A program made the translations under genes and the position numbers. A stretch of DNA of 64,000 nucleotides. Source: Chaetoceros tenuissimus (Eukaryota > Bacillariophyta > Thalassiosirophyceae > Chaetocerotales > Chaetocerotaceae). The stretch covers positions 78,298 through 142,297 of the forward strand of contig BLLK01000028.1 of assembly GCA_021927905.1 (NCBI GenBank), given 5' to 3'. Under the pieces are notes generated by a model. The model was not told the DNA's origin. It did not search any database and saw only the letters and a program-made list of their open reading frames with translations. Shown here one piece after another: positions 10,501 to 38,400 of the stretch. Position 1 is the first letter of the stretch. The number at the start of each line of letters is the position of its first letter.

Positions 10501-11652
10501 TCATTCCTTCATCGCAAATCAGAGGGCATCCAACTAAGTAAAGCTGCTCAAGTTTTCCACAGATTTTTGCTAGGCGTACTAAAGTCAACGAAGTAATTGC
10601 TTTACATTGGGAGAGATTAAGATTGATCAAAGACAATTGTTCTGACAATTCAATGGTCTCGAATGCATCATCCGTTACTTGATTACACTTTGCTAATGAT
10701 AATACTTCAAGACTTGTGTGTGTGCGGGTGAGACCAAAATTAGGCTTGGACTTGAAACAGTTAAGGAAAAAGAACGTACCTCCTACAACGGAACAAGATC
10801 TGAGAAATGCTTGTGTCATGGAAACTAGAGCAGGCACTAAGATCGAGATTGGTCAATTGTCTGCAAGAACTTATATATGCCAGAGCCGAATCTCCTATAC
10901 TCAAGCCCTTCAGGTATAATTGTTTTACTTTTGACCTACCACCAACAAGACTGAAATTTACGTTTGTATGAGATAGATTGAGGCTAACTAAAACACCAGG
11001 GTCGTTTTCGAAGAAATAAATAAATGCATTGCTTGAAAATGATGTACTTCGGAGATCTAAAGATAGTGCATTTTAAGTTTATGTTTCTGAAAATTCAAAA
11101 GACAACCAAGAAACCGAGAGACTTACCTAGCCTCTTGAGTTTCTTATGCATCTTGATATTATCAGAGAGAAGAAGTAAACTTTCGTCATTCAGTCGGTAC
11201 AATCCCCTCATATTAAACTCGACGAGGTACTTCAGCTTCATGATATCCCGAAAACCTCGATCGTCGATTAAAGAGCAAAAACTGAGATTCAGCGTTTCCA
11301 ACCTGGGAAATGATATTGAAATCAATGCACAAGACCTATTTGTAATCAGTTTACATTCTGATAAGTTGAGCTTTTTGAGTTGGTAGTTTAGAAGCCTTGC
11401 TTCGTGTAGGCAAGATTCTTTTGCAGATTGACGCTGTAACCACAAAGTACAAAACGATTCAACAAACACATCTTCTACATGCTTGATTCGAGACAAATCC
11501 ACAGAAATACATTCTCTCCTTGCATGTTTGAAAACTTTTGAGTTATTCAACTGTATGGGAAAATCAGATAAGTCCAAGTGATTCCTTGATGACACGTAAG
11601 CCAAGAGAAAAGTAAGACTCTTCCATTCTAAAATTTTGACTTCACTGGTCAT
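7517..11652 (-). CDS. Leucine-rich repeat, multi-IQ, EF-hand-like protein
   Basis: Large predicted calmodulin-binding scaffold of 1332 aa. Exons on the minus strand are 11652-11127, 11056-10780 and 10712-7517. Introns are 70 bp (GTAAGT...TTTAG) and 67 bp (GTACGT...CAAG); both restore the LRR register (LKRLDLRS; FRCRSLEVLSL). Residues from about 80 to 520 are cysteine-containing LRRs of the F-box-LRR/AMN1 kind, for example LSSCKAITDDGVIALVRGC. From about 590 to 1030 there are many IQ-like helices, such as AATIIQNLARKYI, AVKTIQRIWRTRCK and AVKIQNALRQFLRMKR, with long Arg/Lys-rich coils. The last 170 residues look like degenerate EF-hands (VLDLNQTGFTHYLEF). No F-box was seen. A cytoskeletal or flagellar-type role is possible but unproven. 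Confidence 0.8.
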
Positions 11653-38264: not shown

Positions 38265-38272
38265 TTATATAC
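38265..38272 (+). promoter_or_regulatory. TATA-like element before the permuted tRNA gene
   Basis: TTATATAC lies 30-37 nt before the first tRNA base and is followed by a CAA-rich stretch. Upstream TATA-like boxes support Pol III transcription of tRNA genes in several algae and plants. Positional inference only. Confidence 0.3.
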
Positions 38273-38301
38273 AAAAACAACACAGTCATTTCATATCAAA
38301 T

Positions 38302-38381
38302 TTCGAATGGTCACTGGTTCGATCCCGGTTGTGCGCTCATCGAGTGCGCATATAGCTCAGTGGTAGAGCGTTCGATTGCAG
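38302..38381 (+). tRNA. Circularly permuted tRNA-Cys (GCA)
   Basis: The 3' half (positions 38-73) lies at 38302-38337 and precedes the 5' half (positions 1-37) at 38346-38381. Joined in order 5' half then 3' half, a full cloverleaf forms. The acceptor stem pairs 38346-38352 with 38330-38336 (six Watson-Crick pairs and one G-U). The D stem is GCTC/GAGC with loop AGTGGTA. The anticodon stem pairs TTCGA (38371-38375) with TCGAA (38303-38307). The T stem is ACTGG/CCGGT with loop TTCGATC. Anticodon GCA is at 38378-38380, and U73 (38337) fits tRNA-Cys. The B box (GGTTCGATCCC, 38316-38326) therefore precedes the A box (TAGCTCAGTGG, 38353-38363). Eight further nt (38338-38345) separate U73 from G1. 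CCA is not encoded. T runs follow. The flanks form a relaxed bulge-helix-bulge: TTG 38376-38378 with CAA 38297-38299, each side followed by a 3-nt bulge that places cuts at the canonical 37/38 junction. Confidence 0.87.
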
Positions 38382-38385
38382 ATTG

Positions 38386-38390
38386 TTTTT
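38386..38390 (+). terminator. Pol III terminator T5
   Basis: Five T residues begin four bases after the end of the tRNA 5' half, as expected if transcription runs through 3' half, linker and 5' half in that order. Confidence 0.6.
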
Positions 38391-38394
38391 GGGC

Positions 38395-38400
38395 TTTTTT
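38395..38400 (+). terminator. Backup Pol III terminator T6
   Basis: A second run of six T residues, four bases after the first run. Confidence 0.5.

Follow-up and report, generated by a model that had tools for sequence, protein, structure and literature searches.

A circularly permuted, very probably functional nuclear tRNA-Cys(GCA) gene in the diatom Chaetoceros tenuissimus

Studying a stretch of 64,000 nt of Chaetoceros tenuissimus DNA (the window) reveals on its forward strand, at 38302-38381, what is near certainly a permuted gene for tRNA-Cys(GCA). Nucleotides 38 to 73 of the tRNA come first, followed by 8 nt and then by nucleotides 1 to 37, which places the junction at 37/38. Judged from its sequence and from that of related loci, we hold with strong confidence that this is a functional nuclear gene of type II, which would be driven by an upstream TATA element and matured through a circular intermediate.

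All features of the locus lie on the forward strand. The 3' half (nt 38-73, 38302-38337), delimited by the sequence and by the covariance models R1 and R3 described below, comprises T38 (38302), the 3' strand of the anticodon stem (38303-38307), the variable loop, the T arm (38313-38329), the 3' strand of the acceptor stem (38330-38336) and U73 (38337). It is followed by the linker CATCGAGT (38338-38345), which has 8 nt and not the nine counted in an earlier note on this DNA. The 5' half (nt 1-37, 38346-38381), delimited in the same way, consists of the acceptor 5' strand (38346-38352), the D arm (38355-38369), the 5' strand of the anticodon stem, the anticodon GCA (38378-38380) and G37 (38381). 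The B box (GGTTCGATCCC, 38316-38326) lies upstream of the A box (TAGCTCAGTGG, 38353-38363), as the earlier note had seen; both boxes are assigned by their usual motifs. A TATATA at 38266-38271, which starts 36 nt 5' of the 3' half, is a candidate external Pol III promoter in the light of a five-locus comparison. Downstream of the 5' half the T runs that had already been pointed out are present as two candidate Pol III terminators, a T5 run at 38386-38390 and a T6 run at 38395-38400.

When the halves are rejoined, all 21 stem pairs are standard (7+4+5+5 bp in the R1 alignment), so that the claim of closing stems together with U73 is correct. The residues U8, G18G19 and U33, the pair G15:C48 (R15:Y48) and TTC can be read from the sequence as well. 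The CCA end is not encoded after nt 73; the Cys linkers begin with CATC or TCTT, and the linkers of a second permuted family, tRNA-Arg(ACG), with CCCA. Neither ARAGORN (bacterial code) nor Rfam detected an ordinary tRNA in the window, which is expected of a permuted gene.

The identity of nt 38 depends on the cut: it is U, from the 3' half, with the canonical cut at 37/38, or A, if the cut lies one base later (38382). The letters flanking the junction (38302 and 38382) are identical in all three Cys loci of this genome. A38 is usual in tRNA-Cys, and joining at 37/38 gives U38 here.

In the permuted-order covariance models the circular order is written as a nested structure. R1 consists of two Cys sequences and 13 artificial permutations of ordinary tRNAs from the same genome. 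R3 holds 12 of these artificial permutations with no Cys and no Arg(ACG); its Gln row was omitted because it was misaligned. R3 matches the window with 71.9 bits (E 1.8e-20) at exactly 38302-38381, and because this score is reached without Cys rows the locus is not a chance match; the central claim of the earlier note, a tRNA-Cys(GCA) gene with its 3' half before its 5' half, is thus confirmed. R1, which includes Cys, gives 80 bits at the same place. When the window was searched with a 21-nt piece of the 3' half and a 24-nt piece of the 5' half, allowing up to 3 mismatches, each matched its own place alone, and no match came up in 100 shuffles each, in agreement with the statement that no other copy of either half exists there.

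On eight loci with ordinary tRNAs R3 stayed at 26.0 bits or below, except for 48.7 bits at a tandem pair of intact tRNA-Ala(AGC) genes in L027 (contig C42, starts near 1398 and 1500), where the inner 3' and 5' halves match the model. This pair offers a possible picture of how permuted genes arise, and it is also a warning for permuted-tRNA scans. Similarly, at 10588-10661 of the viral contig L137, where the permuted pattern overlaps an ordinary tRNA gene, R1 scores 54.8 bits. As tandem tRNA genes can reach such values, permuted scans need a check for overlapping intact tRNAs. This mimicry speaks for reading the Cys locus as a relic or pseudogene, that is, as a tandem tRNA-Cys pair which lost its outer halves while the working gene stands intact elsewhere or is absent from the assembly. 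We consider this improbable. Rfam finds no tRNA at six loci which cover all five permuted genes, and tandem ordinary tRNA genes were accordingly rejected as the source of the permuted matches.

Besides the window locus there are two more permuted tRNA-Cys genes, at C48:1104914-1105003 (-) and C32:1986291-1986380 (+), with 92% identity overall in a DNA search and 66.2 bits each with R3. The earlier note had set the condition that its gene be the sole tRNA-Cys(GCA) gene: this has to be modified, as there are three permuted copies, while no intact nuclear one was found in 68 contigs. The halves are identical across the three loci, and the linker is CATCGAGT in the window and TCTTGC (6 nt) in the other two. 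When 3 kb around each Cys locus are compared, local alignments end at about 95 nt, which is the gene itself, and the flanks are unrelated. Constant halves amid unrelated flanks point to selection on the tRNA or else to a recent spread. The differing linker and leader speak against a very recent one, at least of the window copy. A relic fits poorly with three unlinked copies that have kept unchanged halves despite differing linkers and flanks.

A further search used a pattern with a T loop followed by a D arm in permuted spacing. With a short linker it had 13 matches, compared to 32 for a backwards control: five are permuted tRNAs, four are organellar (R1 12.1 to 35.4 bits) and four have no model match. 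The five include the second family, tRNA-Arg(ACG), with loci at C8:78958-79036 and C16:2658578-2658656, which score 56.6 and 55.9 bits with R3 and 56.5 and 56.1 bits with R1. With a long linker there were 12 matches (22 for the backwards control), of which one is organellar and the others are not tRNA by eye, as judged on strings of at most 80 letters.

The rejoined tRNA-Arg(ACG) pairs in all stems save for one D-stem pair. Both copies carry U73 and a G1:U72 pair, which are unusual in eukaryotic tRNA-Arg. About 0.9-1.0 kb of similar sequence is common to both loci, which are therefore segmental duplicates. The permuted tRNA-Arg(ACG) has U20, which is in keeping with the nuclear tRNA-Arg of diatoms, described with C or U at position 20 (PMC8975779). 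An assembly or sequencing artefact would be conceivable insofar as the assembly is a draft with merged haplotypes, according to the available part of its description (PMC8613185). We find this hardly credible, since five loci on five contigs show the same architecture and the three Cys loci have unrelated flanks.

Linkers at the five permuted loci measure 8, 6 and 6 nt (Cys) and 7 and 6 nt (Arg), within the 1-74 bp expected of permuted genes, and contain no run of four T, so that both halves are expected in one transcript. This bears on the possibility of a split tRNA, with one RNA for each half and joining in trans, for which isolated Arg halves could be quoted. Such 5' halves, followed by T runs, are found at C16:2658808-2658844 (L141) and C8:79831-79866 (L142), with a decayed one at C8:80007, and an isolated 3' half at C8:74753-74786 (L142) has its own TATA at -39 to -43. 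However, TATAWW is absent from the 70 nt that precede the isolated 5' halves, and acceptor nt 72 and 73 of the isolated 3' half are both G. Together with the linkers this makes a split tRNA very improbable. Isolated halves close to permuted Arg genes could also be counted in favour of the relic explanation; we read them as probable fragments, less probably as halves of a split tRNA.

Turning to the promoter, each of the five permuted loci has a TATAT(A/T) whose first letter lies 35-39 nt before nt 38, and T runs stand 3' of the 5' half in all five as well. Among 40 ordinary nuclear tRNA genes, taken as the best-scoring RF00005 matches and with isotypes repeated, five have a TATAWW starting in -41 to -32; anywhere in the 70 nt upstream it occurs in 4 out of 22 ordinary genes with long flanks. 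A random stretch of ten start positions in the window has a 1.4% chance of TATAWW, so ordinary tRNA genes are somewhat enriched too. The contrast between permuted and ordinary genes has a hypergeometric probability of 2e-4 if the five loci are treated as independent, which the two Arg loci are not. Their two TATA elements belong to the sequence that both loci have in common and may go back to a single ancestral element. The three Cys elements lie outside the shared stretch of about 95 nt and were therefore not carried along with the unit. A TATA nearly fixed in position at five out of five loci is a further point against relics.

Only one U6 gene was found, and its TATATAT begins 29 nt ahead of the gene start (counted by eye). 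If initiation takes place about 30 nt after the TATA here as well, we infer that transcription would begin about 6 nt ahead of nt 38, which would be just enough for the leader strand of the central helix discussed below. It is reasonably likely that this diatom has no genes other than the permuted ones for its cytosolic Cys(GCA) and Arg(ACG) tRNAs and that their promoter class was switched to a U6-like upstream TATA. The tRNA set behind this comprises the best 63 of 2031 candidates scored with RF00005, and other permuted isotypes, junctions in the D or T loop and initiator Met may escape it. Most ordinary tRNA genes of this genome, having no TATA, presumably use their internal boxes. A review on permuted tRNA genes argues that swapped A and B boxes are unsuited to TFIIIC and that an upstream TATA takes over (PMC3978253).

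For the window locus the following route is proposed. Judging by its position, the TATA about 36 nt upstream of the 3' half would recruit Pol III, because the A and B boxes in swapped order are unfit for normal use; transcription would, again judging by position, end at the T run that follows the 5' half. Sequence and pairing suggest that the resulting RNA adopts the form of a permuted cloverleaf, with its two ends brought together at the anticodon loop as a relaxed bulge-helix-bulge. By analogy with Cyanidioschyzon merolae, a splicing endonuclease would cut after G37 and before nt 38, and a ligase would close the circle. Finally, RNase P and tRNase Z would excise the linker of 6-8 nt and CCA would be added.

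On the leader side, the predicted bulge-helix-bulge (38296-38302) has its central-helix strand at 38296-38299 and a bulge at 38300-38302, AT followed by T38. On the 5' side (38376-38382) it consists of nt 32-35 and a bulge of A36, G37 and A, with the predicted cut after 38381. The register is that of the canonical bulge-helix-bulge at 37/38. The 3' bulge reads ATT at each of the three Cys loci, and the 5' bulge reads AGA. Pairs of the central helix with nt 32-35 number three out of four in the window, four out of four in C48 and three out of four in C32; the Arg loci have three and two out of four, and both have a GCU:AGC outer helix. Free-energy folds with three flank lengths gave the permuted cloverleaf every time at C48, C32 and C8, two times out of three in the window (C20) and never at C16, and the D stem in the Cys folds is a shifted helix of three pairs. 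With two to four of the four central pairs and mixed folds, the predicted bulge-helix-bulge is imperfect and would be a relaxed one.

A tRNA-splicing endonuclease domain (PF01974, 57.3 bits), the only such domain found, is encoded at C48:1112401-1112616 (L152). In an alignment with EndA (5X89), Tyr, His and Lys columns are common to both, and these we take to be the catalytic three. The domain is located about 7.4 kb from the permuted tRNA-Cys gene C48:1104914-1105003, and this nearness is probably a coincidence.

The question whether an intact gene exists was addressed in 41,027,912 bases on 68 contigs, organelles included, in which the open frames of C67 were recognised by us as presumably mitochondrial genes and those of C68 as plastid genes. 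The assembly of C. tenuissimus NIES-3715 is described with 41.0 Mb, a G+C content of 38.9% and 85 nuclear scaffolds, and the available part of this description tabulates tRNAs for the organelles only (PMC8613185). A DNA search with the rejoined Cys sequence, up to E 10 over the 68 contigs, returned the three permuted loci alone, each in two pieces. Three patterns for an intact tRNA-Cys were then applied. One with GAGC had no match and missed the organellar genes too. The pattern GGTA-N11-TGCA-N{15,45}-GTTCRANYC had five matches (control 1), namely the mitochondrial and the plastid tRNA-Cys and three others that ARAGORN does not recognise as tRNA. A looser version that leaves out the D arm had 22 matches (control 8), the two organellar genes and 20 nuclear places, where ARAGORN found no tRNA and the Cys model R2 reached 11.4 bits at best. 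On the organellar tRNA-Cys genes R2 gives 73.1 and 76.5 bits; its five rows include the rejoined sequence itself.

For Arg(ACG), the rejoined sequence retrieved halves only, and an intact pattern from the anticodon to the T loop had five matches (control 10), of which the plastid one alone is a tRNA. The organellar genes were thus recovered as positive controls in three pattern searches, two for Cys and one for Arg. The patterns are exact, with an intron allowed only in the GGTA pattern and only up to about 28 nt, and a divergent intact gene could escape them, as could one on sequence that the 68 contigs lack. An intact tRNA-Cys, which the earlier note had suggested looking for, was in this way found in the mitochondrion and the plastid only. 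One DNA search and three patterns, two of them with organellar controls, therefore yield no intact nuclear Cys gene that the relic explanation could fall back on, and the three permuted copies are very likely the sole cytosolic source of tRNA-Cys.

Both tRNAs are needed often: 16 out of 44 long ORFs of the window (9,859 codons counted from the first ATG) contain 100 TGT, 44 TGC, 98 CGT and 45 CGC. Since no intact nuclear gene was found for Cys or Arg(ACG), the cell probably depends on the permuted route for all cytosolic Cys codons and for much of the decoding of Arg CGN codons.

We also compared viral contigs. A permuted pattern has 44 matches there, of which 34 overlap two ordinary tRNAs, six overlap one and four overlap none (ARAGORN without introns). 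Among these four, L097 and L131 were rejected as permuted tRNAs, as both ARAGORN and Rfam place an intron-containing tRNA-Leu there. For the other two, L106 and L109, which are related phage contigs, R1 gives 39.9 and 38.4 bits; in each, one pair of the anticodon stem is broken and Rfam sees no tRNA at the place. These contigs are phage-like, of about 276 kb, and hold two tandem tRNA-like units (L106 4264-4413, minus strand; L109 3457-3606, plus strand). The acceptor strands seem to have exchanged partners, the 5' strand of each unit pairing with the 3' strand of the other, and the letters of these strands differ between the two contigs. The element resembles a tRNA whose anticodon loop contains a permuted one. 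A fold of L106 shows the structure with swapped partners (z -1.74), and that of L109 its outer part only (z -0.21). A 32-nt piece of the element was found in these two contigs only, and we rejected it as a copy of the diatom gene and regard it as an odd nested element. Other R1 matches in viral contigs number 68, with up to 50.6 bits away from the pattern places, and overlap with intact tRNAs may apply to them. A Cys-specific permuted pattern had no match in the viral contigs or in a collection of genome contigs, and an Arg-specific one had none in the viral contigs; few or no diatoms are expected in these sets.

By the features that could be tested, the locus is a type II circularly permuted tRNA gene, with a bulge-helix-bulge that would be relaxed. 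The table of the review lists 34 permuted genes, from one red alga, four green algae, one chlorarachniophyte nucleomorph and one archaeon (PMC3978253). Later additions are a second chlorarachniophyte nucleomorph (PMC4494063) and the green alga Auxenochlorella (PMC12633428). In the literature searched, which reached few subscription papers, we came across no permuted tRNA gene from a diatom or any other stramenopile, so that within this literature the earlier remark on the lack of an established diatom case stands. The accessible text of an ochrophyte study deals with a permuted 5S rRNA and not a tRNA (PMC11528492), and the available passages of PMC4929541, PMC5664110 and PMC13353863 mention permuted tRNA in text or references with no diatom case.

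A diatom case extends permuted tRNA genes to the stramenopiles, and with the red-derived plastid lineage of this group it raises the question of independent gain or inheritance. It is also a warning that essential tRNAs can be overlooked when the nuclear genomes of diatoms are annotated by standard means. If the two tRNAs are indeed encoded by permuted genes only and the promoter class was switched, all cytosolic cysteine decoding would pass through an RNA circle, and the genome would offer an inbuilt comparison of tRNA genes with internal and with external Pol III promoters. We have not seen the promoter contrast between permuted and ordinary genes described before. This contrast within one genome makes TFIIIC-free transcription of permuted genes directly testable, which is harder in C. 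merolae, whose ordinary genes carry TATA-like sequences like its permuted ones (PMC3978253).

The closest known relatives in design are the type II (37/38) permuted tRNA-Cys(GCA) genes of Ostreococcus lucimarinus, O. tauri and Micromonas pusilla, for which the review gives linkers of 26, 38 and 12 bp (PMC3978253). The diatom gene shares with them the tRNA, the junction and the lack of an intron (PMC3978253), but differs in its stramenopile host, in its linkers of 8, 6 and 6 nt and in its three dispersed copies. While the TATA is nearly fixed in distance here, what the review reports upstream of permuted genes in some green-algal and nucleomorph cases is an AT-rich region of ambiguous nature (PMC3978253). 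In C. merolae an upstream TATA-like sequence, a downstream T stretch and a linker free of signals are found as in the diatom, and in six out of 11 of its permuted genes the junction is at 37/38. Its ordinary tRNA genes also have the TATA-like sequence (PMC3978253), in contrast to the five of five permuted and five of 40 ordinary genes counted here.

The permuted tRNA-Ser of the Bigelowiella nucleomorph likewise has its junction at 37/38 and short linkers, 5 bp in that case (PMC3978253). The Bigelowiella and Amorphochlora nucleomorphs, however, are relict nuclei of green origin with a permuted tRNA-Ser (PMC3978253, PMC4494063), whereas Cys and Arg are concerned here. The green alga Auxenochlorella is reported to have a tRNA set that was incomplete by standard search before permuted genes were detected (PMC12633428). 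The split tRNAs of Nanoarchaeum and Crenarchaeota have their halves joined at a bulge-helix-bulge too (PMC4033280), but these come from separate transcripts, while in C. tenuissimus one transcript is expected to carry both.
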